Shown here one piece after another: positions 1,993 through 18,294 of a DNA stretch of 64,000 nt (position 1 is its first letter; each line of letters opens with the position of its first letter). A program made the translations under genes and the position numbers. Under the pieces are notes generated by a model. That model did not search any database and was not told the DNA's origin. It was given only the letters and a program-made list of their open reading frames with translations. The DNA comes from Actinomycetota bacterium (GTDB lineage Bacteria > Actinomycetota > Rubrobacteria > Rubrobacterales > Rubrobacteraceae): the NCBI GenBank assembly GCA_004563715.1, contig SIRX01000030.1, positions 1 through 64,000 on the forward strand, given 5' to 3'.

Positions 1993-2412
1993 TTACTGGA
2001 TCAGGTCCCCCACCTTCATCGTGCCGCGCTCGACGAGCTCTACCCGGTAGCCGTCCGGGTCTACGACGAAGGCTATGTGGTAGTCGTGGCCCTCGACCGT
2101 CATCGTCTTCGGGGCGAGCGCCACCTCCACGCCCTGCTCTTCGAGCTTCGCGACCGTTTCTTCGAGGTCGTCCACCGTGAAGGCTACGTGGGAATAACCG
2201 TTGCCCGTGTCGTACGGCTCGGTCTGGTCGTGGTTGTGGGTGAGCTCCAGCATGGGCTCCTCGGCGCTTTCCTCCATCGCGAAGAAGTAGTTGGTGGCCG
2301 TGTCGAAGTGCATCTCTCCGACCAGCTTCATGCCCAACTTGTCTACGTAGAAGTCGATGCTCTTCTCCGGATCCAGTATCCGGTAGCAGGTGTGGATGTA
2401 TTTCGCGGCCAT
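1993..2412 (-). CDS. VOC family protein, lactoylglutathione lyase-like
   Basis: MAAKYIHTCYRILDPEKSIDFYVDKLGMKLVG...TEPYDTGNGYSHVAFTVDDLE...VVDPDGYRVELVER. Confidence 0.88.
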   Translation of the reverse strand: MAAKYIHTCYRILDPEKSIDFYVDKLGMKLVGEMHFDTATNYFFAMEESAEEPMLELTHNHDQTEPYDTGNGYSHVAFTVDDLEETVAKLEEQGVEVALAPKTMTVEGHDYHIAFVVDPDGYRVELVERGTMKVGDLIQ

Positions 2413-2515: not shown

Positions 2516-3661
2516 TTAGTGGGCTACGGGCGGCAGGCTCGCCTCTCCCTCGACCGCGGCGCGGCGCTGGCGGCCGGCGGCGTCGGCGGCGAGCATCGCG
2601 TCCACGACCATCGGCGGGTAGACGTCGAAGGGCATGTTGTGGATAGTCTCGCCTTCGGCGCAGGCTCCTTCAGCCACCTTCTCCAGGTCTTCGCGGGTAG
2701 CGTCGCCTACCCCGATATCCTCTAGCGTTACGGGCAGGCCGACCTCCAGGCAGAAGTCGATCACCTCTTCGACGACGGCCGTCGGGCGGTCCTCCAGCAT
2801 GAGCATGGCGATGGTCCCGAAGGCGACCTTCTCGCCGTGCCAGTAGTGGTGCGTGCCCTCCAAGGCCGTGAGGCCGTTGTGGATCGAGTGCGCCGCCGCC
2901 AGGCCGCCGGACTCGAAGCCGAGCCCCGAGAGCAGCGTGTTGGCCTCCACGATCTTCTCCACGGCCGGGGTCACCGCGCCCTGCTCGGCCGCGAGCCGCG
3001 CGGCGAGGCCGTGCTCCAGGAGGGTGTCGTAGCAGAGCCGCGCCAGGGTGAGGGCAGCCCCCGTCGGCGCGCCGCCAGACATGGCCGGCTTCCGGGTCCG
3101 GGAGGAGGCGTCGGCCTCGAAGTACGTCGCCAGGCCGTCCCCCATGCCGGCCACCAGAAACCTTACCGGCGCCCCGACTATGACGGCCGTGTCCACCAGG
3201 ACCGCGTCGGGGTTGCGATCGTAGAAGCGGTACTCCAGAAAGGACCCCTCGTCGTCGTACACCACCGCGAGCGCGCTCGTCGGCGCGTCTGTGGAGGCGA
3301 TGGTCGGCACCACGACCAGCGATATCCCGGCGGGCAGCGCCACGGCCTTAGCCGTGTCCAGGGTCTTACCGCCGCCGATACCCACCACAGCGTCGGCGCC
3401 GCGCGACGAGGCGGCCTCCGAGACCCGGTCTATCTCGGCCGGGGAACACTCGCCGCCGAACTCCATTTGCTCGGCGCCCGAGATACCCTCCAGGGTGTCG
3501 CCCAGGATCTCCTGGACGATCGGGTCGCCCAGGATCAGGGGCCGCTCCGAGCCGAGCTGCTCCAGCACCTCGCCCAGCCGGGCTATAGCGCCCCGGCCCT
3601 GGATGTACCGTCCGGGGGCGGCGAAGACCGCCGCCTGTGGCCCTCCACCGTTGTCGTGCAT
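2516..3661 (-). CDS. Iron-containing alcohol dehydrogenase, glycerol dehydrogenase (GldA)-like
   Basis: MHDNGGGPQAAVFAAPGRYIQGRGAIARLGEVLEQLG...GIGGGKTLDTAKAVA...PTIASTDAPTSAL...HSIHNGLTALEGTHHYWHGEKVAFG; ATG at 3661 preceded by a GAGGAG RBS. Confidence 0.87.
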   Translation of the reverse strand: MHDNGGGPQAAVFAAPGRYIQGRGAIARLGEVLEQLGSERPLILGDPIVQEILGDTLEGISGAEQMEFGGECSPAEIDRVSEAASSRGADAVVGIGGGKTLDTAKAVALPAGISLVVVPTIASTDAPTSALAVVYDDEGSFLEYRFYDRNPDAVLVDTAVIVGAPVRFLVAGMGDGLATYFEADASSRTRKPAMSGGAPTGAALTLARLCYDTLLEHGLAARLAAEQGAVTPAVEKIVEANTLLSGLGFESGGLAAAHSIHNGLTALEGTHHYWHGEKVAFGTIAMLMLEDRPTAVVEEVIDFCLEVGLPVTLEDIGVGDATREDLEKVAEGACAEGETIHNMPFDVYPPMVVDAMLAADAAGRQRRAAVEGEASLPPVAH

Positions 3662-3734: not shown

Positions 3735-4547
3735 CTAACCCTCCTCGCGTAGTAACTTCGACGCCTCGCCCGCCGCCCACCGGACGAGGCCCACCAGAGA
3801 ATCAGCCTCGTCCCCGAAACGCTGGCCTGAGGTAGAGACACCCACCGCGCCCTCGACCGCCCCGCCCTTGCCCGTTATGGGGGCGGCCACGCAGCACAGG
3901 TTCTCCTCGAACTCCTCCACGTCGGTGGCGACGCCCTGAACCCGAACCCGGTCCAGGTGTACCTCGAACAGCTCCGGCCGGACTATGGTGCGCGGCGTGA
4001 AAGGCTCCAGCCCGTAACCTTCCAGGTAGTTCCTCAGACCCTCTGCCCCGGCCCCGGCTATGAGGACCTTGCCAAGCGCCAGCGCGTGCGAGGCCCCGTG
4101 AAACCCCTGTACGATGCCGACCGGCGGGCTCTTGAACGGAGACTTTATCCGGGAGACCGTCACGGCGCCGTCCTGCATAACCCCCAGGTAGGCGTGCCTG
4201 CCGGACCGTCGTACCAGCTCCTCCAACACGGGTTCCACCATCGAGCTAAAGCGCTCCCCGCAGGACCGCTCGTGTAAGGCCGCGACGGCGGCCCCGACCC
4301 TGTATCCCCGCCGCGCGGGGTTCTTCTCCAGGTAACCCTCCTCGATGAGGATGTTGAGCAAGTAGTAGCAGGTGGAGAGGCTTACACCGAGCTCCCGCGC
4401 CAGCAACTTCGCCGTCAACCCTTCGTGCCGGCTCACGAGGTCCAGGACCCTGAAGGCCCGCCGGACGCTCTGGAACTTCGCCCCATCGGCGAAACGAGGG
4501 CCCCGGCCCGAGACCGGCAGCGGCCGCCCGTTGGCTTCGCTTAACAT
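3735..4547 (-). CDS. IclR family transcriptional regulator
   Basis: N-terminal wHTH (SVRRAFRVLDLVSRHEGLTAKLLARELGVSLSTCYYLLNILIEEGYLEK) followed by an IclR effector-domain pattern. Confidence 0.88.
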   Translation of the reverse strand: MLSEANGRPLPVSGRGPRFADGAKFQSVRRAFRVLDLVSRHEGLTAKLLARELGVSLSTCYYLLNILIEEGYLEKNPARRGYRVGAAVAALHERSCGERFSSMVEPVLEELVRRSGRHAYLGVMQDGAVTVSRIKSPFKSPPVGIVQGFHGASHALALGKVLIAGAGAEGLRNYLEGYGLEPFTPRTIVRPELFEVHLDRVRVQGVATDVEEFEENLCCVAAPITGKGGAVEGAVGVSTSGQRFGDEADSLVGLVRWAAGEASKLLREEG

Positions 4548-4645
4548 CCGTGAACCCTTTCTGGCGGACGCCCCCACGATACCGCCACTCCTCGACGAAC
4601 CACAACTTACCATGTGGCGATAGAGTCTACAAACAACCCGGAAAT

Positions 4646-4692
4646 ATTTTCGCACATTGTTGGAACGAACCCGTTCGGCGGTTGCCCGAAGA
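4646..4692 (+). promoter_or_regulatory. Candidate regulatory element, copy 1 (ATTTTCGCACATTGTTGGAA-N16-TTGCCCGAAGA)
   Basis: Found again with a 17-nt spacer at 7718-7765; lies in the iclR/VOC divergent region; contains the palindrome CGAACccGTTCG at 4666-4677. Confidence 0.5.
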
Positions 4693-4766: not shown

Positions 4767-5162
4767 ATGGCCAAAGCCATACACACGATGATCCGGGTTC
4801 TAGACCTGGACCGCTCCATCTCGTTCTACGATCAGGCTTTCGGGCTGCAAGAGGTAGACCGGTTCGATTTCGACGACTTTACGCTCGTCTACCTGCGCAA
4901 CGATGAGAGCGGGTTCGAGGTGGAGCTGACGCTCAACAAGGGTGAGACAGAACCTTACGATCTCGGAAACGGCTACGGCCACCTGGCCGTCTCCGTAGAC
5001 GACGTGGAGGCTGAGCACCAGCGTTTCGAGGAGTCGGGCCTCGGGCCGCGGCGGCTGGTGGAGCTGGAGAAAGACGGCCAGGTTCTGGGCAAGTTCTTCT
5101 TTGTAGCCGACCCGGACGGTTACCAGATCGAAGTTCTCCAACGTGGAGGCCGCTACCGCTAG
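4767..5162 (+). CDS. VOC family protein, glyoxalase I-like
   Basis: MAKAIHTMIRVLDLDRSISFYDQAFGLQEVDRF...EPYDLGNGYGHLAVSVDDVE...FFVADPDGYQIEVL; strong AGGAGG RBS. Confidence 0.88.
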   Translation: MAKAIHTMIRVLDLDRSISFYDQAFGLQEVDRFDFDDFTLVYLRNDESGFEVELTLNKGETEPYDLGNGYGHLAVSVDDVEAEHQRFEESGLGPRRLVELEKDGQVLGKFFFVADPDGYQIEVLQRGGRYR

Positions 5163-5244
5163 GGCGCGAACGCGCTTACAACGCGTCACAGAGGCACCAT
5201 TCAAACTTCCGCTTGACCTATTGGGAAAGGAGAGGCGTAGCGCG

Positions 5245-5886
5245 ATGACCGAAGATACAGGAGCCAGCAAGGGCCCGAGCCTCGAAGGGCAGACCTCGGG
5301 CGAGGGCCGGATGCGGACGGCCGATGCCGCCGTCTCGGCCGAGGACCTGGGCACTAGCCCCGCGGCAGACGGCCTTGGGGAGCTGAAGGCCCTCGACCGG
5401 GAAACGGCCGAGGTGCTCGTCGCCGTGACGCGGGCCATGTACCCGCACGACCGCGTCCCCAACGTACACTACGAGCGCGTGGTAGCGAGCCTGGACGGCA
5501 AGGCCGCCGCCGACGAGGGCACCGGGCGCCTGCTCACCGAAGGCGTCGCCTCGCTCGCGACGTTCACCGGACGCTGGCCCCGCGAGTTCGGAGAGCTACC
5601 AGAGGAGGAGCAGGTCAGGGCCTTAAAGAGGCTCGAAAAGGGCGCCTTCTTCAAGGCGGTGGCATCCGAGGTCGTGGTCAACCTCTACAGCCAGCACGAC
5701 ATCTGGCCGTACTTCGGCTACGAGGGACCCTCCAACGACAAGGGCGGCTACGTAAACCGCGGCTTCGACGACATAGACTGGCTCGACGACGCGCCGGATT
5801 ACCGGGACGTGCCCGTAGAGAAGACCTTTGTGGACCCCGTAGAGCAGGTCTCCACCGAAGAACGTCTCAGCAAGGAGGGACAGTAG
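5245..5886 (+). CDS. Gluconate 2-dehydrogenase subunit 3-like protein
   Basis: ETAEVLVAVTRAMYPHDRVPNVHYERVVASLDGKA...FFKAVASEVVVNLYSQHDIWPYFGYEGPSNDKGGYVNRGFDDIDW; directly upstream of a GMC oxidoreductase. Confidence 0.75.
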   Translation: MTEDTGASKGPSLEGQTSGEGRMRTADAAVSAEDLGTSPAADGLGELKALDRETAEVLVAVTRAMYPHDRVPNVHYERVVASLDGKAAADEGTGRLLTEGVASLATFTGRWPREFGELPEEEQVRALKRLEKGAFFKAVASEVVVNLYSQHDIWPYFGYEGPSNDKGGYVNRGFDDIDWLDDAPDYRDVPVEKTFVDPVEQVSTEERLSKEGQ

Positions 5887-7461
5887 ATGCCCGCACCGTT
5901 CGACCGCAACGACGACTCGGTCGTCGTGATCGTCGGCTCCGGGGCCGGCGGAGGAACCCTGGCGAACCAGCTCGCCCAGAAGGGGATAGACGTCGTGTGC
6001 CTGGAGGCCGGCAAGCGCCACGAGCCCGAGACCCACATAGACGACGAGTGGCCCGCCTTCAACATGCTCGCCTGGCTGGACAACCGCACCACCAGCGGCA
6101 CCTGGCGCGTCGCCCAGGACTTCCCAAACCTCCCCGCCTGGCACAGCAAGTGCGTCGGCGGCTCGCCCGTCCACTGGGCCGGCTGCTGCCCGCGCTTCAA
6201 GGACTGGGAGTTCAAGATAAAGACCACCTACGGCGACATCCCCGGCGCCAACATGCTCGACTGGCCCCTTACTCTCGAAGAGCTAGAACCCTACTACGAC
6301 AAGGCCGACACGAACGTCGGCGTCGCCGGCACCAACGGCCTGCCACTGCACCAGCCGGACAACAACGCCAAGGTCCTGCTCGAGGGCGCCCGGCGGATGG
6401 GCTACAAGAACTACTCCACCGGCCGCTACGGGCACAACTCCGCCCCCTACGACGGCCGGCCGGCCACGATCCAGGACGGCTTCTGCTTCGAGGGGAACCG
6501 CTCGAAGGCAAAGTGGTCGCCGCTGGTCTCGGACCTCCCCAAAGGTGAGAAGACCGGCCACCTGGAGGTCCGTCCCGAGTCGATGGCGCTCCAGATAGAG
6601 CACAACGGGTCCGGCAAGGTGACCGGCGTGCTCTACGCGGACGCCGACGGGAACCACCACGTCCAGAAGGCGCGCGTCGTGTGTGTGGCGGGCAACTCCA
6701 TCGAGTCGCCCCGGCTCCTGCTCAACTCCGCCTCTTCGCACCACCCCGACGGGCTCGCCAACTCCAGCGGCGAGGTCGGCAAGAATTACATGCGTCACGT
6801 GTCCGATACCTGCTGGGGCATTTTCGAGAAGCCGGTGAACTTCTACCGGGGCAACACGATGGCCGGCATTATCGAGGACGAGTCGCACAACGACCCCGAG
6901 GGCCGCGGCTTCGTCGGCGGCTTCTACATGGAGACCATCCACCTCGGCCCGGCGTTCATGGCGTCGTTCATGAACCCGCAGCAGTGGGGCCGGGACTTCA
7001 CCGAACTGATGGACGCCTACGAGAACTTCGCCGGGATGTGGCTCGTTGGCGAAGACATACCGGCAACCACGAACTGCGTGACGCTCAACCACGACGTAAA
7101 GGACCAGCACGGCCTGCCGGTGCCGAACGTTCACTACGACGACCATAAAAACGACGCGGAAATGCGCGACTATGCCGCCGCCAAAGCGCGGGAGCTGTAC
7201 CAGTCGGTCGGCGCGATCAAGACGGTCCGGACGCCGCCGTTTCCGGCCTCGCACAACATGGGCACCTGCCGCATGAGCGAGAGGCCCGAGGACGGCGTGG
7301 TGAACAAGTGGGGCCAGGCCCACGAGGTGGACAACCTGTTCGTCTCCGACGGCAGCCAGTTCACCACCGGCGCCGCGGCGAACCCGACGATCACCATCGT
7401 CGCCCTCGCCATCCGGCAGGCCGACTACATCGCCGAGCAGATGTCGCACAACGGTATCTAA
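5887..7461 (+). CDS. GMC family oxidoreductase
   Basis: VVVIVGSGAGGGTLANQLAQKGIDVVCLEAGK ... HNMGTCRMSERPEDGVVNKWGQAHEVDNLFVSDGSQFTTGAAANPTITIVALAIR. Confidence 0.9.
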   Translation: MPAPFDRNDDSVVVIVGSGAGGGTLANQLAQKGIDVVCLEAGKRHEPETHIDDEWPAFNMLAWLDNRTTSGTWRVAQDFPNLPAWHSKCVGGSPVHWAGCCPRFKDWEFKIKTTYGDIPGANMLDWPLTLEELEPYYDKADTNVGVAGTNGLPLHQPDNNAKVLLEGARRMGYKNYSTGRYGHNSAPYDGRPATIQDGFCFEGNRSKAKWSPLVSDLPKGEKTGHLEVRPESMALQIEHNGSGKVTGVLYADADGNHHVQKARVVCVAGNSIESPRLLLNSASSHHPDGLANSSGEVGKNYMRHVSDTCWGIFEKPVNFYRGNTMAGIIEDESHNDPEGRGFVGGFYMETIHLGPAFMASFMNPQQWGRDFTELMDAYENFAGMWLVGEDIPATTNCVTLNHDVKDQHGLPVPNVHYDDHKNDAEMRDYAAAKARELYQSVGAIKTVRTPPFPASHNMGTCRMSERPEDGVVNKWGQAHEVDNLFVSDGSQFTTGAAANPTITIVALAIRQADYIAEQMSHNGI

Positions 7462-7469
7462 AAGGCCCG

Positions 7470-7498
7470 GGGCAAGAGGGCCAGCGGCCCTCTTGCCC
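7470..7498 (+). terminator. Strong stem-loop terminator after the GMC oxidoreductase
   Basis: GGGCAAGAGGGCC AGC GGCCCTCTTGCCC, 13-bp perfect stem with 3-nt loop, 8 nt after the stop. Confidence 0.8.
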
Positions 7499-7520
7499 TT
7501 ATAAAAAGAAAGTAAAGAAA

Positions 7521-7700
7521 GATAGAGGACCCGCTGGGCGTCATCGTCCGCATCGGCGCCGCTGGCCTGTGCCGCACGGACATCCACGTCATCGAGGGCC
7601 AGTGGGCCCCCATACAGGATGCCGACGGCAACCTGCTGCCCTACGTGCTGGGCCACGAGAACGCCGGATGGATCGAGGAGGTCGGCCCGGCGGTCATCAA
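7521..7700 (+). pseudogene. Internal fragment of the zinc alcohol dehydrogenase gene (duplicate of 9779-9958)
   Basis: 180-bp direct repeat with 3 mismatches by eye against the intact ADH gene; no start codon of its own; encodes IEDPLGVIVRIGAAGLCRTDIHVIEGQWAPIQDADGNLLPYVLGHENAGWIEEVGPAVI. Confidence 0.95.
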
Positions 7701-7717
7701 CCGCAACCGGACGGCGA

Positions 7718-7765
7718 ATTTTCCCACATGGTTGGAAAACACGGCGTTGGCGCCTTGCCCGAAGA
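7718..7765 (+). promoter_or_regulatory. Candidate regulatory element, copy 2 (ATTTTCCCACATGGTTGGAA-N17-TTGCCCGAAGA)
   Basis: Same bipartite sequence as 4646-4692, upstream of the amidohydrolase gene. Confidence 0.5.
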
Positions 7766-7908: not shown

Positions 7909-8970
7909 GTGTCTTTTCAGGGAAAGGGCAACATCGTGTACGAGAAAGACGGTGAGAAGTACTTCGTGGTGGACGAACACATCCACTACTGGGACGCGAG
8001 CCCGGAGAACACCACCAACAAGTACGGCGAAGGCTTTATCAGCTGCTTCTACGACTACCACAAGAACCTGAGCCCGGAGGAGTACGTCTGGCCCTACGAG
8101 AAGTACCGCAAGTACTCCGAAGAGGACATGATGCACGACCTCTTCGAGATCGGGTACGTGGACGTTGCGATCTTCCAGTCCACCTACCTCACGGACTTCT
8201 ACGACAACGGCTTCAACACCACCGCGCGCAACGCCACCCTGCGCGACAAGTACCCGGACAAGTTCATCCTGAACGGCTCCTTCGAACCGCGGCGGGGCGA
8301 AGTCGGCCTGGAGGAGTTCGAGCGGAAGTACGAGAAGTACAACTTCACCGGCGTCAAGCTCTACACCGCCGAGTGGCACGAGGACTCCAAGGGCTGGAAG
8401 CTCGACGACTACTGGTCCCTGAGGCACCTGGAGAAGTGCATGGAGCTCGGGATCAAGAACGTCCACGTCCACAAGGGGCCGACGATCTGGCCGCTCAACC
8501 GCGACGCCTTCGACGTGGCCGATGTGGACCGCACGGCCAGCATGTTCCCGGAGCTCAACTTCATCGTCGAGCACGTGGGGCTACCGCGGCTGGAGGACTT
8601 CTGCTGGATCGGCACCCAGGAGCCCAACGTCTACGGCGGGCTCGCGGTAGCGATGCCGTTCATCCACGCCAAGCCCCGATACTTCGCCCAGATTCTCGGG
8701 GAGCTCCTGTACTGGCTCGGGGAGGACCGGATCCTCTTCGCCAGCGACTACGCGCTCTGGCAGCCGAAATGGCTGGTCGAGATGTTCGTGGACTTCGAGT
8801 ACCCCGGCGACGCGGAGTTCGACGACTACGACGAGGTCACGCCGGACATCAAGCGCAAGATCCTCGGTCTGAACGCCGCGAGGCTCTACGACATCGAGGT
8901 CCCCGAAGAGCTACAGCTCGTAACCGCCGATCAGGGCACGGGGCCGGTGGCCTCCCCCGAGAACCCGTAG
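7909..8970 (+). CDS. Amidohydrolase family (TIM-barrel metal-dependent hydrolase)
   Basis: YFVVDEHIHYWDASPENTTNKYGEGFISCFYDYHKNLSPEEYVWPYEKYRKYSEEDMMHDL... with terminal ILFASDYALWQPKW. From memory it resembles the amidohydrolase next to mimABCD/prmABCD monooxygenase genes. Confidence 0.85.
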   Translation: MSFQGKGNIVYEKDGEKYFVVDEHIHYWDASPENTTNKYGEGFISCFYDYHKNLSPEEYVWPYEKYRKYSEEDMMHDLFEIGYVDVAIFQSTYLTDFYDNGFNTTARNATLRDKYPDKFILNGSFEPRRGEVGLEEFERKYEKYNFTGVKLYTAEWHEDSKGWKLDDYWSLRHLEKCMELGIKNVHVHKGPTIWPLNRDAFDVADVDRTASMFPELNFIVEHVGLPRLEDFCWIGTQEPNVYGGLAVAMPFIHAKPRYFAQILGELLYWLGEDRILFASDYALWQPKWLVEMFVDFEYPGDAEFDDYDEVTPDIKRKILGLNAARLYDIEVPEELQLVTADQGTGPVASPENP

Positions 8971-8979
8971 GTCCCGGGC

Positions 8980-9702
8980 ATGACGGTACGCGAAGCGGTC
9001 CTGGACGCCCTCTCCAGCGTCCGGGACCCCGAACTCGACGAGCCCGTTACGGACCTCGGTTTTGTCTCGAACCTCGAGGTCGAGAGCGGGCTCGTCAGTG
9101 TCCGGCTGAGGCTACCCACGTACTTCTGCGCCCCGAATTTCGCTTACATGATGGTGGCGGACGCGAGGGAAGCCCTGCTCTCGGTCCCGGGGGTCCGGGA
9201 GGCGCGGGTCGTCCTCGACGACCATTACGCTTCAGCGGAGATCAACGGCGGCGTAAACGGGGAAAAGGGTTTTGACGGCGCTTTCGAGGGCGAGGCCGAG
9301 GGGCCGGACCTCGAAGAGCTTCGCCGGGTCTTCCACCGCAAGTCGTTCGTCGCCCGGCAGGAGAAGCTCTGCCGGGAGTTGCTGGCCCAGGGCTACACCC
9401 CCGCAGAGCTGGCGGACCTGTGTCTCGGCGGGCTCCCGGGCCCACGCTCGACAGCGGCGCGACAGTACCTGGAGCGGAGGTCGGACCTCGGCCTCGACGT
9501 CTCCGGAACGGCCCCGCTCATCGTGGACCCCGACGGCAACCGGGTACCCGAAGCGGCAGTCGTCCGCCACCTGCGCTTCGCCCGCACGGTCCGGGTGAGC
9601 ATCGAAGGGAACGCCACCCACTGCCGGGGGCTGCTCGCCACCCGTTACGGGTCGAGCCGGGTAGTAGGAGAAAAACCAGATAGAGAGGAGACTGCTGTAT
9701 GA
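8980..9702 (+). CDS. MIP18/DUF59 metal-sulfur cluster assembly-like domain with C-terminal extension
   Basis: MTVREAVLDALSSVRDPELDEPVTDLGFVSNLEVESGLVSVRLRLPTYFCAPNFAYMMVADAREALLSVPGV: DUF59-type N-terminus; overlaps the ADH start by 4 nt. Confidence 0.75.
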   Translation: MTVREAVLDALSSVRDPELDEPVTDLGFVSNLEVESGLVSVRLRLPTYFCAPNFAYMMVADAREALLSVPGVREARVVLDDHYASAEINGGVNGEKGFDGAFEGEAEGPDLEELRRVFHRKSFVARQEKLCRELLAQGYTPAELADLCLGGLPGPRSTAARQYLERRSDLGLDVSGTAPLIVDPDGNRVPEAAVVRHLRFARTVRVSIEGNATHCRGLLATRYGSSRVVGEKPDREETAV

Positions 9703-10760
9703 AAGCCGCACGCCTGCACCGCTACGACGAGAGCATCCCGGCCGACAGCCTGAAAGTGGAGGAGATCGAGGAGCCCAGGATAGAGGGCCCGCTGGACGTC
9801 ATCGTCCGCATCGGCGCCGCTGGCCTGTGCCGCACGGACATCCACGTCATCGAGGGCCAGTGGGCCCCCATACAGGATGCCGACGGCAACCTGCTGCCCT
9901 ACGTGCTGGGCCACGAGAACGCCGGATGGATCGAGGAGGTCGGCCCGGCGGTCACCAACGTCGAGGTCGGGGACACCGTGATCCTGCACCCCCTCATAAC
10001 CTGCGGCCTCTGCCGCTACTGCCGCGCCGGACGCGACATGCAGTGCGAGAACGGCGCGTTCCCCGGCATAAGCCAGGACGGGGGCTTTGCCCAGCTCCTG
10101 AAGACCAGCGCCCGCGCCTGCGTGAAGCTGGACCCGATCCTGGAACCGAAGGATATCGCGGCGCTCGCCGACGCGGGCCTGACCGCCCACCACGCCGTCC
10201 GCAAGTCCGTCCCGGAGCTCTACGCGGGCACGAACGCCGTCGTCATCGGCGCGGGGGGCCTCGGTCACATCGGCATCCAGTGCCTCAAGGCGATGACGCC
10301 CACGAACGTTATCGTGGTAGACCCGAACGAGGAGGCTCTCGCGCTCGCTAGAGAGTGGGGCGCGGACGAGACCGTGAAGGTCGAGGACGGCTACGTGGAC
10401 ACCGTGGTCGAGATGACGAACGGCGGCGCGGAGGTGGTCTTCGACTACGTCGGCGAGCGCGGCGCCCAGGACGACGCCTGGAACCTGACCCGGCCCGCCG
10501 GCTCACACTACGTTATCGGCTACGGCGGAAAGGTCGAGGTGCCGACGATAGACATCATCTCGACCGAGCGCAACATAATCGGGAACCTGGTCGGCACCTA
10601 CAACGACCTGGCCGAGCTGATGGACCTGACGGCCCGGGGCCTGGTGACGCTGCACACCTCGACCTACCCGCTGGACGCCGTCAACGACGCCATCCAGGAC
10701 CTCAACTCCGGCAACCTGCGGGGCCGGGGCATACTGGTGCCGGAGGGTGCCGCCGCGTAG
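9699..10760 (+). CDS. NAD(P)-dependent zinc alcohol dehydrogenase
   Basis: LCRTDIHVIEGQW...LGHENAGWIEEVG...CGLCRYCRAGRDMQCE...VIGAGGLGHIGIQCLKAM. Confidence 0.92.
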   Translation: MKAARLHRYDESIPADSLKVEEIEEPRIEGPLDVIVRIGAAGLCRTDIHVIEGQWAPIQDADGNLLPYVLGHENAGWIEEVGPAVTNVEVGDTVILHPLITCGLCRYCRAGRDMQCENGAFPGISQDGGFAQLLKTSARACVKLDPILEPKDIAALADAGLTAHHAVRKSVPELYAGTNAVVIGAGGLGHIGIQCLKAMTPTNVIVVDPNEEALALAREWGADETVKVEDGYVDTVVEMTNGGAEVVFDYVGERGAQDDAWNLTRPAGSHYVIGYGGKVEVPTIDIISTERNIIGNLVGTYNDLAELMDLTARGLVTLHTSTYPLDAVNDAIQDLNSGNLRGRGILVPEGAAA

Positions 10761-10768
10761 AGGGCCGC

Positions 10769-11443
10769 TCAGAGCGGCAGGAGGTCCAGGAAGTAGCGCC
10801 CGTCCCGGAGCACGACTTCCCCGGCCTCGAAACGTAGAGCTTCCTCGAAGCCCGGTCCGCCGTAGACGAAGGTGTGGAACTCTCCGTTCTCGCCGCCGGG
10901 GTCCACGCCGGATGGCAGGTCGGCGAGGAAGCTCTCGTCGATCCGCCGCCCGACCCAGGAGGCGTCGAGGACCGCCGCGTCCGCGCAGACGACGACCGCC
11001 TCGAAGCCCCGCCCGATGAGGTCCAGGATCAGGGCCCGGGTGTCGCGCCCCCAGAGCGGGAACAGGCCGCGCATCCCGAGCCCGGCCAGCAGCCGCTCGC
11101 GGTACTCCCGGATATCCTGGAGAAAGAGGTCTCCGAAGACCACCGGGCGCACACCCCGCTCCGCGTAGCCCGAGAGGGCCTCGCCCAGCCGCGACTCGTA
11201 CTCGGCGTTGGTGGCGCTCTCCGGGAGAGAGACCTCGTGCAGCGGCAGCCCCAGGGCCCCGGCCTGCCGCCGGAGGAGCTCGCGCCGGACGCCGTGGATG
11301 CTCACCCGGTCAAAGCCCTCCGTTACCGTCGTGATCAGGGCCTCCACCCGGTAGCCCCGGGCCTGGACCTCGCGCAGCGCCAGGCAGGCGTCCTTGCCGC
11401 CGCTCCACGAGACCACGACCCGCCGGTCACCCCGGTCACCCAT
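10769..11443 (-). CDS. Dph6-related ATP pyrophosphatase (diphthine-ammonia ligase-like)
   Basis: VVVSWSGGKDACLALREVQARGYRVEALITTVT...SIHGVRRELLRRQAGALGLPLHEV...GENGEFHTFVYGGPGF. Confidence 0.85.
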   Translation of the reverse strand: MGDRGDRRVVVSWSGGKDACLALREVQARGYRVEALITTVTEGFDRVSIHGVRRELLRRQAGALGLPLHEVSLPESATNAEYESRLGEALSGYAERGVRPVVFGDLFLQDIREYRERLLAGLGMRGLFPLWGRDTRALILDLIGRGFEAVVVCADAAVLDASWVGRRIDESFLADLPSGVDPGGENGEFHTFVYGGPGFEEALRFEAGEVVLRDGRYFLDLLPL

Positions 11444-12386
11444 CGTCGGCGAGACCCGGCACGCCGGGAACCCCTTTTGCGCGCCGCACCGCGCGCAGGA
11501 TAGCCTCGCGGGTAACGTCCGCGCCCCAGGCCCCGACCACGTCGGGCGAGGCCTCCACCGCGCCAGCCGAGGCTGCAAAGACCACGTCCCCGTCCACGCT
11601 GGTGTGGACCGGGTAGACGGCGCGGGCCATGCCATCGTGGGCCATCTGGGCCACCTTGTTTGCCTGGGGCTTGTCGAGCCGGGCGTTGGTGGCCACGACG
11701 ACCAGGGTAGTGCTCTCGCCCCACCGCATGCGGGCGTCGGCCCCCATCAAGAGCTCCACGCTGTCGCCCGGCGTGCCGTCGTCCTGTCGGGGTCCGGCCA
11801 GGATGCGACCGTCGTGATCCCGGACGTCGCCGAAGGCGTTGACGACGGCCAGCGCCCCCACTACCAGCCCGCCGTCGAGCGCAACGGAGGCAGAGCCGAG
11901 CCCGCCCTTCATCGCCCGGTCGAGGCCCGAGACCTTACCCACGGTGGCGCCGGTCCCCGCGCCGACGCTACCCTGGGCGAAGTCTCCGTCCGAGGCGGCC
12001 GAGGCCGCCTCGTAGCCCATTGCGGCGTCGGGACGCACCCCCGGAGAGCCGGCCATCAGGTCGAAGATCACGGCCGCCGACACCAGCGGTATCCTCGCCA
12101 CCCCCACGTCGAGGCCGACGCCCCGCTCCTCCAGAAAACGGACCACGCCGTCGGCGGCGGCGAGCCCGAAGGCGCTGCCCCCGGTGAGCAGCACGGCGTG
12201 CGTCTCGCGCACCCGGCCTATGGGCCCGAGCCGGTCGGTCTCCCGCGTTCCGGGTGAGGAGCCACGCACGTCCACGCCGACGATGGCAGGACGCGCGAAG
12301 ATCACCGCCGTGCACCCGGTCTGGCCTTCGGGGTCGGAGGCGTGGCCCACGAGCACGCCGGGCACGGCGCAGAGGTTATCCGGCAC
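11436..12386 (-). CDS. P1 family peptidase (DmpA / S58-like)
   Basis: VPGVLVGHASDPEGQTGCTAVIF...LLTGGSAFGLAAADGVVRFLEERG...GTGATVGKVSG...GSASVAL; overlaps the previous gene start by 8 nt. Confidence 0.85.
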   Translation of the reverse strand: MPDNLCAVPGVLVGHASDPEGQTGCTAVIFARPAIVGVDVRGSSPGTRETDRLGPIGRVRETHAVLLTGGSAFGLAAADGVVRFLEERGVGLDVGVARIPLVSAAVIFDLMAGSPGVRPDAAMGYEAASAASDGDFAQGSVGAGTGATVGKVSGLDRAMKGGLGSASVALDGGLVVGALAVVNAFGDVRDHDGRILAGPRQDDGTPGDSVELLMGADARMRWGESTTLVVVATNARLDKPQANKVAQMAHDGMARAVYPVHTSVDGDVVFAASAGAVEASPDVVGAWGADVTREAILRAVRRAKGVPGVPGLADDG

Positions 12387-12398
12387 GGCGGGCCAGCT

Positions 12399-13259
12399 CT
12401 ACTCCCCAGTCTCTTCCGGCCCGGAGTCCCCGGACCCGGGGGCATCGGTTCCGGGGGCTCCGGGTCCGGCATCGGGGCCGTCCTCTGCGAGGCGGCTGAT
12501 CGGGACGAGCTCCTGGTCGCTGCGCTTCGGGCCGAACTGGACGAGCACGGACTCCCGGACCATCGAGTAGTCTACCACCCGGCCCTCCCGGCCTTCGAGG
12601 TTGACGGCCGTGTTCTTGAACGGCGCCCGCTGCTTGAACTCCTTGTAGGTCTCGTGCTCGTAGCGCATGCAGCACTTCACCTCGCCGCAGCAGCCGATGA
12701 TCTTCTCGTTCGGGGTTACGCCCTGTTGCTTGGCGAGCCGGACGTTGACCGGCCCCATGCTCCGCGCGCCGCTCCACACGGCGCAGCACAGGGGCAGCCC
12801 GCAAGTGTCGCACCCGCCGGCGTCTCCCGACCGCTCGATAAACGTAAAGCGCACCAGCTCCACCCGGGCGTCGTACCGGGCCTCCAGCTTCTCCCGCACG
12901 ACGCCCAGGTTCACCTCCCGGTCCGCCTGGTACTTGACCTCCAGGTACTCCCCGTTCAGCGAGACGTCGCACCCGATAAACTGCACCCCGCCGATCCGGT
13001 AGTCCCGGGCCAGCTTCTGGGCCTCGTTGCGCACCTCACGGCCCAGTTCCCGGTTCGCGCTCTCCCGGCGCTCGTCGTCCTCCGTGAGGACGCGGGAGAT
13101 CTCGTACGGCTCGGCGTAGGGTTCGCGGCGGCGGGGCGTGAGCGCGACGCGCCCGACGACGTCCCCCACCTCGGTCTCGACGACGACCCGGTAGCCCACG
13201 CGGAGGTCGAGGTCCCGAGCGTGGCAGAGCCTCGGCACCCGCCAGCCGGAAACGCGCAC
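12399..13259 (-). CDS. ricT: PSP1 C-terminal domain protein, RicT/YaaT-like
   Basis: DCEP-like Cys-rich PSP1 region: EVKYQADREVNLGVVREKLEARYDARVELVRFTFIERSGDAGGCDTCGLPLCCAVWSGARSMGPVNVRLAKQQGVTPNEKIIGCCGEVKCCMRYEHETYKEFK. Confidence 0.85.
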   Translation of the reverse strand: MRVSGWRVPRLCHARDLDLRVGYRVVVETEVGDVVGRVALTPRRREPYAEPYEISRVLTEDDERRESANRELGREVRNEAQKLARDYRIGGVQFIGCDVSLNGEYLEVKYQADREVNLGVVREKLEARYDARVELVRFTFIERSGDAGGCDTCGLPLCCAVWSGARSMGPVNVRLAKQQGVTPNEKIIGCCGEVKCCMRYEHETYKEFKQRAPFKNTAVNLEGREGRVVDYSMVRESVLVQFGPKRSDQELVPISRLAEDGPDAGPGAPGTDAPGSGDSGPEETGE

Positions 13260-13261
13260 GT

Positions 13262-14350
13262 CTACGAGCCGGGGGAATACTCGGGTATCTTCTGCCGTAT
13301 CCGCGATAGCGCGACCTCCAGGATAGCCTCCGCGGAGACATTATACGTGAGGCCCGCCCGGGCTTCCCCGACCCCGAGCGCCATCCCGGCCCAGTCCGCC
13401 CCCGGATGCCGATCTACCAGGCCCCGGACCTCCTCTACCCGGTCCGCGTTGGCCGCCAGCTCCGGGACACCGGCCTCCACGGCCGCCGCGTCCCGGTACA
13501 CGAGCACCAGCAACTCCAGCGCCTCCCGCACCGCCGCGTCCCGCCCGGCCCGTCCGGCCCGCTTTGCGGCGTCTTTCGCCCGGCGGGTCCCGGGCTCCTC
13601 GAAGAGTCCCAGGACCTCCGCCTCCCGCGCCGCGCCGACCGCCTCGGCCCGGGCCACGATGGCGGCGGCCGCGCGGCGGCGGTCCTCGTAGTCTCCCTCG
13701 AAAGCGAACGCCGCCTCGAAGACCGCCGCGCGCAGCCCCGTAAGCTCGGGTTCCTCCGTGTACCGCAGGGAGAGGCCCACGCTCCCCCGGCCCAACGCCG
13801 CGGCCAGCGCCGGGTCGAGCGTAAATCCTTCCGCCCCCCGCTCTTTCAGAAACCGCTCCACCTCCGGGACCGGCACCGGGTCGAAGCGGACCGCCCGCGC
13901 CCGCGAGGCGATGGTCGGCAGCACCCCCTCCCGCGAGGCCGCCAGCAACAGGAACACCGCCATCCCCTCCGGCTCTTCCAGCGTCTTTAGCAGGGCGTTC
14001 GCCGCCTGGACGTTGAGCGTGTCGGCCTCCAGTACGAACACCCGGCAAACGCCCTCGAAGGGCCGGCTCGCCGCGAGGCGAACCACCTCGCGTACCTGCC
14101 CGATCGTTGTAAACACGCCTTCCGGCTCTACCTCTACCAGATCGGGATGCAGGCCACGGCGGGCCCGGCCTTCGGCCGGAGCGTTGTCGGCGGTCACCAG
14201 CGCCGCCCCGAACCGGAGCGCCACCGTCCGCTTGCCGACACCGGGGGGACCGTGGAACAGGTAGGCGTGCGGCGCGCGGTCGCCCTCCAGGTCCTTTTGC
14301 AGGCGGCGCAGGGAGGCCGCGTTGCCGACTATGCCCTCGAAAACCTCCAG
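13262..14350 (-). CDS. holB: DNA polymerase III delta-prime subunit (probable non-canonical CTG start)
   Basis: Continuous frame upstream of the track ORF reads LEVFEGIVGNAASLRRLQKDLEGDRAPHAYLFHGPPGVGKRTVALRFG...; Walker A is upstream of the first ATG/GTG/TTG (14224); CTG at 14350 is preceded by GGAGG with 9-nt spacing. Confidence 0.75.
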   Translation of the reverse strand: MEVFEGIVGNAASLRRLQKDLEGDRAPHAYLFHGPPGVGKRTVALRFGAALVTADNAPAEGRARRGLHPDLVEVEPEGVFTTIGQVREVVRLAASRPFEGVCRVFVLEADTLNVQAANALLKTLEEPEGMAVFLLLAASREGVLPTIASRARAVRFDPVPVPEVERFLKERGAEGFTLDPALAAALGRGSVGLSLRYTEEPELTGLRAAVFEAAFAFEGDYEDRRRAAAAIVARAEAVGAAREAEVLGLFEEPGTRRAKDAAKRAGRAGRDAAVREALELLVLVYRDAAAVEAGVPELAANADRVEEVRGLVDRHPGADWAGMALGVGEARAGLTYNVSAEAILEVALSRIRQKIPEYSPGS

Positions 14351-14351
14351 G

Positions 14352-14558
14352 CTACTCGTCCTCCGACCCGCCCCGGCGGCCGAGCGCGGAGCTCACGCCG
14401 GCCCCGATCGCCACGCCGATGCCGGCGCCGATGCCGATTCCCAGGGCGACGTTGTCCAACAGAAGGCCCATCGCCACGCCTACCGCGATCCCGAGGGCCA
14501 CGCCGCTGCCAACGCCTATTGTCCTGCGCTGGCCTGGATCCTCTGGTCCTCTGCTCAA
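14352..14558 (-). CDS. Small glycine-zipper hydrophobic protein (68 aa)
   Basis: MSRGPEDPGQRRTIGVGSGVALGIAVGVAMGLLLDNVALGIGIGAGIGVAIGAGVSSALGRRGGSEDE; stop codon abuts the holB start. Confidence 0.6.
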   Translation of the reverse strand: MSRGPEDPGQRRTIGVGSGVALGIAVGVAMGLLLDNVALGIGIGAGIGVAIGAGVSSALGRRGGSEDE

Positions 14559-14610
14559 GTTATCCTCTCCCCCCTCTGTAACCCCGTGCTGTCCGGTCTC
14601 TGCCGAAAGT

Positions 14611-15360
14611 TTAGCAGCGTCCGGCGAAAGCCCGCAGCACGGCCTCCGCCAGCTCCTCCGGGGGCCGCGCGGCGTCGAGCGCCTCTATCCTCCCGGGCTC
14701 CCGCCGCGCCAGCTCCTCGAAGCCCTTCTCCACCCGTCCCGCAAACCCGCCGCCGACCTTCTCTATCCGGTCCAGCGGCGCCCCGGAGTCGCGGGCGCGC
14801 CGGGCGCGCTCCGCCGCCTCCAGCCGCAGGTAAAAAGTCCTGTCGGGCATCGCGGCGCCCACGGCCCGGGCGTTCAGCTCGCGCACGGCCTCCGCGCCCA
14901 GCCCCCGGCCAAACCCCTGGTAGGCGATGCTGGAATCCAGGTAGCGCTCGCAGAAAACGTTCTCTCCCTTCTCCAGGCGCGGCAGGATAGCCCGGCGCGT
15001 GTGGTCCGCCCGCGCCGCCGCGTACAGGTAGGCCTCCGTCCAGGGGTCCATGTCCAGGGCCGGGTCGAGCAGCACCTCCCGGACGCGCTCGGCGGCGGGC
15101 GTGCCGCCCGGCTCGCGGGTAAAGTGGGTCGGCACGCCGAGGTCCGCCAGAAGAGGCTTGAGGTGCCGCACCAGGGTGGACTTGCCCGAGAAATCCAGCC
15201 CCTCGACCGTTACGAAGACACCCCTCGGAGGCGAAACGTCCGTCTTTCCGGGTTCTAGGCCGCGGCCCGGCCCAGAGCGTGCCGCTCGGCGGCGTCCACG
15301 TGCGCCTCGAAAAAGCGCCGGTGCTCGACACCGGCGCCGCGCATCGCCTCGGCGTGCCAC
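14611..15360 (-). CDS. tmk: Thymidylate kinase (start codon uncertain)
   Basis: GVFVTVEGLDFSGKSTLVRHLKPLLADLGVPTHFTREPGGTPAAERVREVLLDP...AYQGFGRGL; the only canonical in-frame start (GTG 15360) lies inside the PuuD-like gene. Confidence 0.85.
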   Translation of the reverse strand: MARRGDARRRCRAPALFRGARGRRRAARSGPGRGLEPGKTDVSPPRGVFVTVEGLDFSGKSTLVRHLKPLLADLGVPTHFTREPGGTPAAERVREVLLDPALDMDPWTEAYLYAAARADHTRRAILPRLEKGENVFCERYLDSSIAYQGFGRGLGAEAVRELNARAVGAAMPDRTFYLRLEAAERARRARDSGAPLDRIEKVGGGFAGRVEKGFEELARREPGRIEALDAARPPEELAEAVLRAFAGRC

Positions 15361-16019
15361 TGCACCGCCACGATCCAGCGCGACGAGAGGTCCCGCGACT
15401 CGACCGCCTCCACGATGCCGTCGGCGGCGTACGCGGAGACCACCAGGTCTTCCGCCAGGTCTTTTATGGCCTGGTGGTGGTACGAGTTGACCTTTACGGT
15501 GTCACCGCCGGTTATCCCGGCGGCCGCGGAGCCTCCGCGCACCTCGACCTCGTGCGTCGCCTGCCACTTGGGGGTCTCCTGGCAGTGCCTGAGCCCTTCC
15601 GGCCCGAGCTGGGAGGGTATGTCCTGGTAGAGCGTCCCGCCCAGCGCCGCGTTCAACACCTGCATCCCGCGGCAGATGCCGAAGATCGGGATGCCGCGCC
15701 GCAGGGCCGCCTTCAGGAGCGCCACCTCGAACTCGTCCCGCTCCGGGATGACGATGTCCAGCTCCGGGAGCGGCTCCTCCCCGTAGTAGCTGGGGTGCAG
15801 GTCGCTCCCGCCGCTCAACAGCAGCCCGTCCAGGCTGCCCACGATGTCTCCCGCGTCGCGATGCCCCACCACCGGCGGCAACACCACCGGCACGCCGCCG
15901 GCCTGGGCCACGCCCTCTACATAATCGAAGTCCGTCCTTATGAACTTGCCCAGCGGCCGAGTCGCCGTGGTCTCCAGGTCTTCTTTCAACGTCGCCGTTA
16001 CGCCGATTACCGGGGCCAA
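15255..16019 (-). CDS. Gamma-glutamyl-gamma-aminobutyrate hydrolase family (class I GATase, PuuD-like)
   Basis: PVIGVTATLKEDLET...DGLLLSGGSDLHPSYYGEEP...PIFGICRGMQVLNAALGGTLYQDIPSQ...VNSYHHQAIKDLA...VQWHAEAM. Confidence 0.9.
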   Translation of the reverse strand: MAPVIGVTATLKEDLETTATRPLGKFIRTDFDYVEGVAQAGGVPVVLPPVVGHRDAGDIVGSLDGLLLSGGSDLHPSYYGEEPLPELDIVIPERDEFEVALLKAALRRGIPIFGICRGMQVLNAALGGTLYQDIPSQLGPEGLRHCQETPKWQATHEVEVRGGSAAAGITGGDTVKVNSYHHQAIKDLAEDLVVSAYAADGIVEAVESRDLSSRWIVAVQWHAEAMRGAGVEHRRFFEAHVDAAERHALGRAAA

Positions 16020-16188
16020 ACTACCTCACCAATCAAAAACTTCATCTACTTTAACAAATCTTATAGTGCGGCAGAATAGCAGATAACCGCGGCCAACGTC
16101 CACAAAATAGCGTAGCCGGACAGCCGGGTGTAAATCGAGGTCCGTTTTGCGGGGGGCTTCTCGGGGAGGTCAAGGTCCAGCCGGCTCT

Positions 16189-18294
16189 CTATGTGGTGGA
16201 CTTCTCCAGCTCCTGTTCGCTCTTCTCGGATGGCCGTCCACCTCCCTCTGCGTTCTCCGCGGCGGCCTTCTCTTTGGCCGCCTCCTGCTTTTTCGGGCAG
16301 TCCATGTTGATGCACGTGATCCAGGGCCGCCGCTTGCCGAGGACTTTTATCTCCGGAGCGCCGCAGGCGTCGCAGGTCGTGCCGAGCGGGATTATATCCC
16401 CCCGCTGGGGCAGCGGATAGGTCACCCGGCACTCCGGGTAGCCCTCACACCCGACAAAGCGCTTGCGGCTTTTCCTGTTGCGGCGGATGATGAGGTTGTT
16501 GCCGCACTCCGGGCACGAGCCGAGCGTCTCATCCACCTTGATGCCGCTGCGGACGATGTCGGCGAACTGCTCCTCGCTGCTCTCCAGATGCTGGTAGACC
16601 CGGCGCAGGATGTCGCGCGAGGTATCCACCACGTTCTCCTTGCTGGTCTTGCCCTCGGAGATGGCGTCCATGCTCTTCTCCAGCTCGGCGGTCATCTCGT
16701 GGGAGGCGATCTCGGAGGCGAAGTCCTTGAGCGCCTGGGCCACGGCGATGCCGGTCTCGGTCGGGATGAGCGGGTCGCCGTGGACGTACCCCCGGTCGTA
16801 GAGGTTCTGGATAATGCCGGGGCGCGTGGCCTTGGTACCGAGCCCCAGGTCCTCCATGACCTTGATGAGCCGCCCCTGGCCGTACCGGCCCGGCGGCTGG
16901 GTCTCTTTGGCGAGGATCTCCGCCCCCAGGAGCGCGACCTCCTGGCCCTCTTCCAGAGCGGGAAGCTCCTCGTCCGAGCGGCGGCTGTAGGGGTAGACGC
17001 CGAGCCAGCCCTCCTCGGTGACGACCGTCCCGTTGGTAACCAGCGGCTCGCCGCCGGAGTCGAAGCGCAGCGTGGTGCGCAGCGTCTTCGCCGGGCCGGA
17101 GAGGGTGGCCAGAAAGCGCCGGACGACGAGCTGGTAGACCTTCCACTGGTCGTCGCGCAGGGCGCCCTTCGAGGCGCGGGCCGTCGGGTAGATCGGGGGG
17201 TGGTCCGTGGTCTCTTTCTTGCCCCGCGTCGGCGAGAGCTTGCCGCCCTGTAGCAGCTTCTCGGCGTAGGGTCCGGCCCCCTCGACGCCCTTGAGGTACC
17301 CGAGCACCTCCCGCAGGTCCAGCGAGCGCGGGTATGCGGTGTTGTCCGTCCGGGGGTAGGAGATGTAGCCGTCGGTGTACAGGTCCTCCGCCAGACGGGA
17401 CGCCCGCGACGGGCTGATCCCGATCCCCGCCGCCGCCGTGAGGAACGCCGTGGTGTTGAACGGCGTCGGGGCCGGCCTGGAGGCCGACCGCTGCTGCACT
17501 TCCGTAACCACGGCCGGGTCCGCCAGGTTCTCGTGGGCCGTCTTCGCGGCGGCCTCCTCCTTGAAGCGCCCGCGGGCGTGGCGGACGGTGAACGGCTCGC
17601 CGTTCCGGAGGGTGGCCTCTATCTCCCAGTAGGGCTCGGGGACGAACGCCCGGCGCTCACGCTCGCGCTCGGCGATCAGGACGAGCGTGGGCGACTGCAC
17701 CCGGCCCACGGAGAGAAAGGCGTTGCCGTAGCGCTTCGTGGCCCGGGAGACCCACCGGGTCAGGGTGGCGCCCCAGATCAGGTCAATGTCCTGCCGGGCC
17801 GCGCCGGCGTCGGCCAGGTCCCGGGAGACCTCGACCAGCTCGTCAAAGGCCCGGGTGACCTCCCCCGGCGTGAGCGCCGAGAAGCGGGCCCGCTCGACGT
17901 GGTCCATCAGCTTCGGGTTGGCCTCGAAGGCGAGCGACAGGGCCTCCACCCCGATCAACTCCCCCTCCCGGTCGAAGTCCGTGGCGATGACCACCCGGTC
18001 GGCCTTTTTCGCCAGCGCCTTGACCGCGTTCGCCACGCCCTTCTCCGAGACGTTCTTGAGGATCTCGGCGTCGATCAGCTCCGAAGGCTCGACCTTCTGC
18101 CAGTTGGAGTACTCCTCGGGGTACTCCAGGTTCAGGACGTGCCCCTTGAGCCCCACCGACATCGTCTCCTCGCCCTTCCAGGTAAAGGTCTGGTGCGGCA
18201 CGCTGCGGTGCTTGCCTTCTTTCACCGGTCCCTCCGCGAGGAACTGCGAGATCTTCTTCGCCGTGTTCGCCTTTTCAGAGATTATTAGTCGCAT
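16189..18294 (-). CDS. topA: DNA topoisomerase I, archaeal-type (type IA)
   Basis: MRLIISEKANTAKKISQFLAEG...SVGLKGHVLNLEYPEEYSNWQKVEPSELIDAEI...ATDFDREGELIGVEAL...SVGRVQSPTL...DGYISYPRTDNTAYP; C-terminal CPECG/CDACG zinc motifs. Confidence 0.88.
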   Translation of the reverse strand: MRLIISEKANTAKKISQFLAEGPVKEGKHRSVPHQTFTWKGEETMSVGLKGHVLNLEYPEEYSNWQKVEPSELIDAEILKNVSEKGVANAVKALAKKADRVVIATDFDREGELIGVEALSLAFEANPKLMDHVERARFSALTPGEVTRAFDELVEVSRDLADAGAARQDIDLIWGATLTRWVSRATKRYGNAFLSVGRVQSPTLVLIAERERERRAFVPEPYWEIEATLRNGEPFTVRHARGRFKEEAAAKTAHENLADPAVVTEVQQRSASRPAPTPFNTTAFLTAAAGIGISPSRASRLAEDLYTDGYISYPRTDNTAYPRSLDLREVLGYLKGVEGAGPYAEKLLQGGKLSPTRGKKETTDHPPIYPTARASKGALRDDQWKVYQLVVRRFLATLSGPAKTLRTTLRFDSGGEPLVTNGTVVTEEGWLGVYPYSRRSDEELPALEEGQEVALLGAEILAKETQPPGRYGQGRLIKVMEDLGLGTKATRPGIIQNLYDRGYVHGDPLIPTETGIAVAQALKDFASEIASHEMTAELEKSMDAISEGKTSKENVVDTSRDILRRVYQHLESSEEQFADIVRSGIKVDETLGSCPECGNNLIIRRNRKSRKRFVGCEGYPECRVTYPLPQRGDIIPLGTTCDACGAPEIKVLGKRRPWITCINMDCPKKQEAAKEKAAAENAEGGGRPSEKSEQELEKSTT

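Follow-up and report, generated by a model that had tools for sequence, protein, structure and literature searches.

The locus described here is probably a monooxygenase-less form of the mim/prm locus of the Rubrobacteraceae, acting as an IclR-controlled locus for the oxidation of C3 diols, ketols and methylglyoxal. It lies in a 64,000-nucleotide stretch of DNA (the window) from genome G000 (99% complete, 176 contigs), the sole member of its genus group in the genome set used. The core is a triad encoding an amidohydrolase-family protein (AH), a DUF59/MIP18-type protein (DUF59) and an alcohol dehydrogenase (ADH). Anatomy, the failure to find a diiron monooxygenase (MMO), synteny, conservation of a palindrome, trees and evolutionary constraint are our observations; regulation, substrates and the roles of AH and DUF59 are what we infer.

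The original prediction had described a tightly packed AH-DUF59-ADH triad with the ADH start overlapping the DUF59 gene, and this was borne out, the overlap being 4 nt (ATGA). The GMC, gluconate-dehydrogenase-subunit-3-like (Glu3), VOC, IclR and GldA-like genes that it placed upstream were likewise confirmed by family profile or sequence comparison (Table 1). The gap between GMC and AH also holds an ADH relic and a palindromic operator-like site, neither of which that prediction had noted. Regarding gene starts, the GldA-like open reading frame reaches 3841, 3661 being its presumed start; the IclR regulator more likely begins with the ATG at 4547; and Glu3 may truly begin later than 5143. AH probably starts at a GTG at 7945 rather than at 7909, because most relatives begin M/L-YEKDGE and a close relative (G014) carries an in-frame TAG just upstream of this motif. 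The hairpin 3' of GMC was not called by the terminator scan and is a possible transcription end. The genes of the flanking housekeeping block were labelled in the present analysis as S58-type peptidase, PSP1, holB, tmk, glutamine amidotransferase and topA.

Table 1. Features of the triad locus and its surroundings, in window coordinates.
Feature	Position	Strand	Evidence
VOC1, glyoxalase-I-like protein	1993..2412	-	Pfam Glyoxalase E 1.6e-21
GldA-like Fe-dependent dehydrogenase	2516..3661	-	NCBIfam glycerol dehydrogenase NF006941, above cut-off
IclR-family regulator	3735..4655	-	IclR_C E 3.8e-29; MMO-less IclR clade
Operator 1, before VOC2	4647..4667	.	Palindrome match, 2 mismatches; overlaps annotated IclR start
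VOC2, glyoxalase-I-like, C3 cassette	4767..5162	+	59-69% to Bradyrhizobium and Ponticoccus cassette VOCs
Glu3/GmcB-like small subunit	5143..5886	+	39-40% to annotated gluconate dehydrogenase subunit 3 proteins in the same position
GMC dehydrogenase large subunit, GmcA-like	5887..7461	+	GMC_oxred_C E 7.9e-26; 59-63% to MMO-associated GMCs
14-bp perfect hairpin 3' of GMC	7469..7499	+	Fold z -3.9; no T-run
ADH relic	7521..7701	+	98% identical to 9779-9959
Operator 2, before AH	7719..7739	.	Palindrome match, 1 mismatch
AH, amidohydrolase-family protein	7909..8970	+	Pfam Amidohydro_2 E 7.6e-46
DUF59/MIP18-type protein with helical C-terminal extension	8980..9702	+	FeS_assembly_P E 5.6e-19
ADH, zinc-dependent alcohol dehydrogenase	9699..10760	+	ADH_N and ADH_zinc_N
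Dph6-like ATP pyrophosphatase, flanking	10769..11635	-	Diphthami_syn_2 E 6.8e-35; adjoins ADH in G012 too
Conserved housekeeping block, synteny anchor	11436..18294	-	Beside triad in 17 relatives

The likeness of the triad to the tail of mim/prm operons, as originally proposed, is upheld by the published order: in the smegmatis and Gordonia operons the mimABCD/prmABCD genes for the propane/acetone diiron monooxygenase end in a hydrolase, a metal-sulfur protein, an ADH and a GroEL (PMC4428276). Homologues of the triad are very often found beside MMOs. AH is 54-88% identical to homologues both mim/prm-linked and MMO-less, its closest matches being from Rubrobacteraceae. On plasmids of Rhodococcus sp. 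JS3073, Bradyrhizobium, Caballeronia, Aminobacter, Paracoccus, Gemmobacter and Ponticoccus, AH homologues lie directly behind four MMO genes, sometimes with ADH between, and in R. aetherivorans BW2 an MMO alpha gene lies close upstream. AH-DUF59 pairs with no MMO within the fetched stretch were seen in Peribacillus, Thermomicrobium, two haloarchaea and Rhizobium N324, and DUF59 adjoins AH in every examined locus not cut by a contig end.

Among the window genes around the triad there is no MMO alpha or beta subunit, reductase, coupling-protein or MMO-type GroEL gene, as the original prediction had stated; the genome-wide search covered the alpha subunit. A Rubrobacteraceae MMO-alpha protein query that matched 5 of the 10 genomes searched together found nothing in G000, nor in R. 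taiwanensis (G026) or R. marinus (G039), and no second triad was found in G000 either. Searches of G000 with PF02332 and PF08882 also gave no match; the controls of both profiles were silent too, so these results were not used as proof of absence, and the PF02332 result was replaced by the protein query with its positive genomes. Of 40 Rubrobacteraceae genomes, 26 gave a match for AH and 13 for MMO alpha. Twelve genomes of at least 90% completeness (G000, G014, G020, G024, G025, G026, G034, G036, G037, G038, G039 and G046), two of them single-contig, have AH without an MMO-alpha match. None of the eight MMO-less genomes checked has the MMO-type GroEL; each of them, G000 included, gives a single GroEL match at ~78%, compared with 89-90% for the copy found at the MMO locus in G032 and in G035.

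The window locus is the positional orthologue of the Rubrobacteraceae mim locus and occupies the family's usual chromosomal site: in 17 relatives the triad locus is flanked by the same minus-strand housekeeping block, which lies beyond ADH, GroEL or Dph6, and 6 of these loci contain an MMO whereas 11 do not. The presence of MMO switches at least five times along well-supported branches of the AH and ADH trees, and at least twice in the DUF59 tree, whereas the IclR tree shows a single split between MMO-linked and MMO-less regulators. The MMO alphas of the family form one group. Because MMO changes repeatedly in the AH and ADH trees and IclR divides only once, the simplest account looks to be the gain or loss of an IclR-MMO cassette, in many cases together with GroEL, at a locus where the triad is resident. 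A scenario of repeated in-place MMO deletion was also considered and is weakened by the MMO-less IclRs not being nested among the MMO-linked ones. The discordance among AH, DUF59 and ADH identities for the same genome pairs makes recombination within the locus likely. In G019 the MMO-IclR-GroEL genes and the triad are at separate sites.

For the Rubrobacteraceae, the original idea of the triad as a portable unit taken up by a new catabolic pathway therefore has to be reversed: the triad, which keeps the chromosomal position it has in MMO-bearing relatives, forms the fixed core, and what is exchanged, judging by the trees, is the MMO together with an IclR clade of its own. The neighbouring VOC-Glu3-GMC is itself a cassette found beside MMOs elsewhere.

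Other arrangements were seen along the way. In G012 (L074) ADH stands at the same chromosomal site without AH or DUF59, beside divergent GMC-Glu3 genes. In L100, L101 and L099 (G018, G034 and G044), AH is immediately preceded by a further AH-like copy, diverged and 23-38% identical to the window AH. MMO-bearing Rubrobacteraceae loci carry a small 2Fe-2S ferredoxin gene (L086:1830-2225, L089:8439-8690), homologues of the former being seen solely in MMO-bearing loci. Phage-integrase-family genes occur a few kb from the MMO-less triads of G014 (L088:9111-9932) and G038 (L097:13233-14534), and these could be tied to cassette exchange.

The palindrome TTTTCnnACAnTGTnnGAAAA occurs twice in the window, before VOC2-Glu3-GMC and before AH-DUF59-ADH. 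It precedes AH in several MMO-less loci, and in several MMO-bearing loci it stands before MMO alpha and again before AH. When 12 whole genomes were scanned allowing up to 2 mismatches, 15 of the 16 sites fell in the triad locus, and the reversed control pattern gave 1; no site was found in G020 or G039. A third match in G000, with two mismatches, at C12:7845 (L119) beside a nucleoside-phosphorylase-like gene, is probably due to chance. From its position the palindrome is a candidate operator for IclR, and, as the same palindrome stands upstream of each unit, one IclR regulator probably switches both. The Glu3-GMC genes of G012, G019 and G020, which in the latter two lie away from the triad, have no palindrome nearby, so it appears that the window copy alone has been brought under this switch. 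This short operator-like site helps to delimit the regulon.

Between the GMC hairpin and operator 2, the 181-nt ADH relic copies ADH codons ~27-87 with sharp ends, and the sequence directly 3' of it corresponds to that between IclR and AH in G014. It looks like the scar of the rearrangement that brought VOC2-Glu3-GMC to this site. Misassembly was considered as its source and is thought unlikely, because both ends run into non-ADH sequence.

Even without an MMO, AH, DUF59 and ADH are intact and under purifying selection: between pairs of MMO-less genomes dN/dS is 0.02-0.31 for AH, 0.10-0.30 for DUF59 and 0.03-0.15 for ADH, similar to MMO-linked pairs. This constraint, in comparable MMO-less pairs, sets the triad apart from GroEL, which vanishes with the monooxygenase. 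Because the MMO-type GroEL is missing, yet the triad is intact and constrained, it is unlikely that AH and DUF59 are solely MMO maturation factors. It may be asked instead whether they are general metal-handling or maturation factors for another enzyme, such as GMC or a second oxygenase elsewhere. The fold of DUF59, whose model matches DUF59 structures, would suit such a role, as would its Cys50, kept in 27 of 27 members, and the persistence of AH and DUF59 without MMO; Cys215, in the C-terminal extension, is nearly invariant, and the extension itself gave no convincing fold match. We nonetheless consider this explanation unlikely, for AH keeps a metal-site motif and deep, enzyme-like conservation, and a GMC homologue is missing in most MMO-less relatives at a cut-off of 1e-100. 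The AH ligand set read from the motif is of mononuclear type (D22-x-H24, H186/H188, H222 and D280); 4 of 27 members have Ala at the second His of the usual HxH. Modelled at a mean pLDDT of 88, AH matches TIM-barrel amidohydrolases, namely 3irs, decarboxylases and hydratases. A PDB search with the single AH sequence returned nothing at 1e-3, and a profile gave a weak match to 3irs as its sole match. In A. chiangmaiensis the Mim amidohydrolase-like protein accounts for ~3% of the proteome, close to the levels of the MMO subunits (PMC7176365), an abundance that by analogy would be more enzyme-like than assembly-factor-like.

The replacement cassette bears on the substrates. VOC-Glu3-GMC adjoins MMO in four plasmid-borne loci (Bradyrhizobium, Ponticoccus, Azospirillum thermophilum and Methylocella tundrae), and in Sphingobium it lies beside glyoxalase II and D-lactate dehydrogenase genes, with no annotated MMO nearby. 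The GMC of Methylocella silvestris is reported to oxidise acetol to methylglyoxal, and GmcAB with glyoxalase I has been proposed to serve C3 growth in Methylacidiphilum (PMC8630023). Rhizobium N324, moreover, pairs AH-DUF59 with gloA, with no MMO. Together these contexts point, by analogy, to acetol and methylglyoxal chemistry. VOC1, which also adjoins the MMO-less triads of G026, G014 and G039, and VOC2 both score below the NCBIfam cut-offs for lactoylglutathione lyase, and ADH resembles an archaeal ADH and the secondary ADH of R. ruber. That the substrates oxidised through this locus are glycerol or sugar polyols rather than C3 ketols strikes us as distinctly improbable. The GldA-like protein does score above the glycerol dehydrogenase cut-off and the nearest solved GMC structures are fructose and glucose dehydrogenases, substrate specificity not being readable from sequence; yet the GMC and VOC have close counterparts in cassettes next to propane-type MMOs, and GldA homologues adjoin MMO in relatives too.

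It is also very improbable that the triad is a decaying, functionless leftover of a lost mim operon, as the loss of MMO with its GroEL, and the ADH fragment as a sign of rearrangement, might suggest. Its frames are intact and dN/dS is low in many MMO-less genomes, single-contig ones included, an operator is still kept before AH, and AH-DUF59 without a nearby MMO is found in haloarchaea, Peribacillus and Rhizobium too. Least credible is that AH replaces MMO as a dinuclear oxygenase of the amidohydrolase-related AibH2, PtmU3 or SfbO type, whose ligands have been described (PMC7782822, PMC10811679): AibH1H2 (8ful) is indeed among the folds matched by the AH model, but lower down, outranked by 5-carboxyvanillate decarboxylases and 3irs; AH seems to lack two of the six dinuclear-site ligands, His222 and Leu283 standing in place of AibH2 Glu265 and His340 in a motif alignment; and the window's AH unit has no Rieske-type partner gene.

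We therefore return to an IclR-controlled C3 oxidation locus. Where relatives have an IclR and monooxygenase cassette, G000 has an IclR of another clade with VOC2-Glu3-GMC. Ketones or acetol would be formed reversibly from secondary alcohols or 1,2-propanediol by ADH and GldA; acetol would be converted to methylglyoxal by GMC-Glu3, with electrons passing to respiration, and the VOC glyoxalases would channel the methylglyoxal towards lactate. AH might then be a mononuclear metalloenzyme whose substrate is a carbonyl or hydroxy compound formed along this C3 route, with DUF59 as its putative assembly partner. In the mim/prm papers cited here, AH and DUF59 stand behind the monooxygenases without an assigned function. 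As the triad is kept without the monooxygenase, their role can be tested in strains free of that confounding enzyme, and the functions proposed for the remaining genes, conjectural as they are, are open to ordinary enzyme assays. More tentatively, and with some reserve, we suggest that AH could be an uncharacterised C3 ketol/methylglyoxal metalloenzyme with a dedicated DUF59 maturase in bacteria and haloarchaea, its link to MMO reflecting membership of a pathway rather than assembly, and with the IclR-MMO cassette plugging into and out of this core in the Rubrobacteraceae.

Compared with known systems, AH shares fold and mononuclear-type ligand motif with the PF04909 amidohydrolase-family decarboxylases and hydratases, but differs in lacking a close sequence relative of known structure and in its obligate DUF59 partner; DUF59 has the fold and conserved Cys of DUF59/MIP18 Fe-S assembly proteins. 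The loci of R. taiwanensis and R. marinus share with the window the site, the triad and VOC1, with no MMO found genome-wide, and that of R. taiwanensis also GldA, IclR and the operator; neither locus, however, contains VOC2-Glu3-GMC or showed an ADH relic, and R. marinus has no neighbouring IclR match and no operator at the cut-off used. Gene order in the window cassette is that of the homologous VOC-GmcB-GmcA cassettes of Methylocella, Methylacidiphilum, Bradyrhizobium and Azospirillum (GMC 59-63% to plasmid homologues), whereas the adjacent cytochrome c gene is missing and the window copy shares its operator with AH-DUF59-ADH instead of adjoining an MMO. With the mim/prm operons the window has the homologous AH-DUF59-ADH tail in common, in the same order, and it differs from them in lacking the MMO subunits, reductase, coupling protein and MMO-type GroEL and in an IclR from a different clade than the family's MMO-adjacent regulators.
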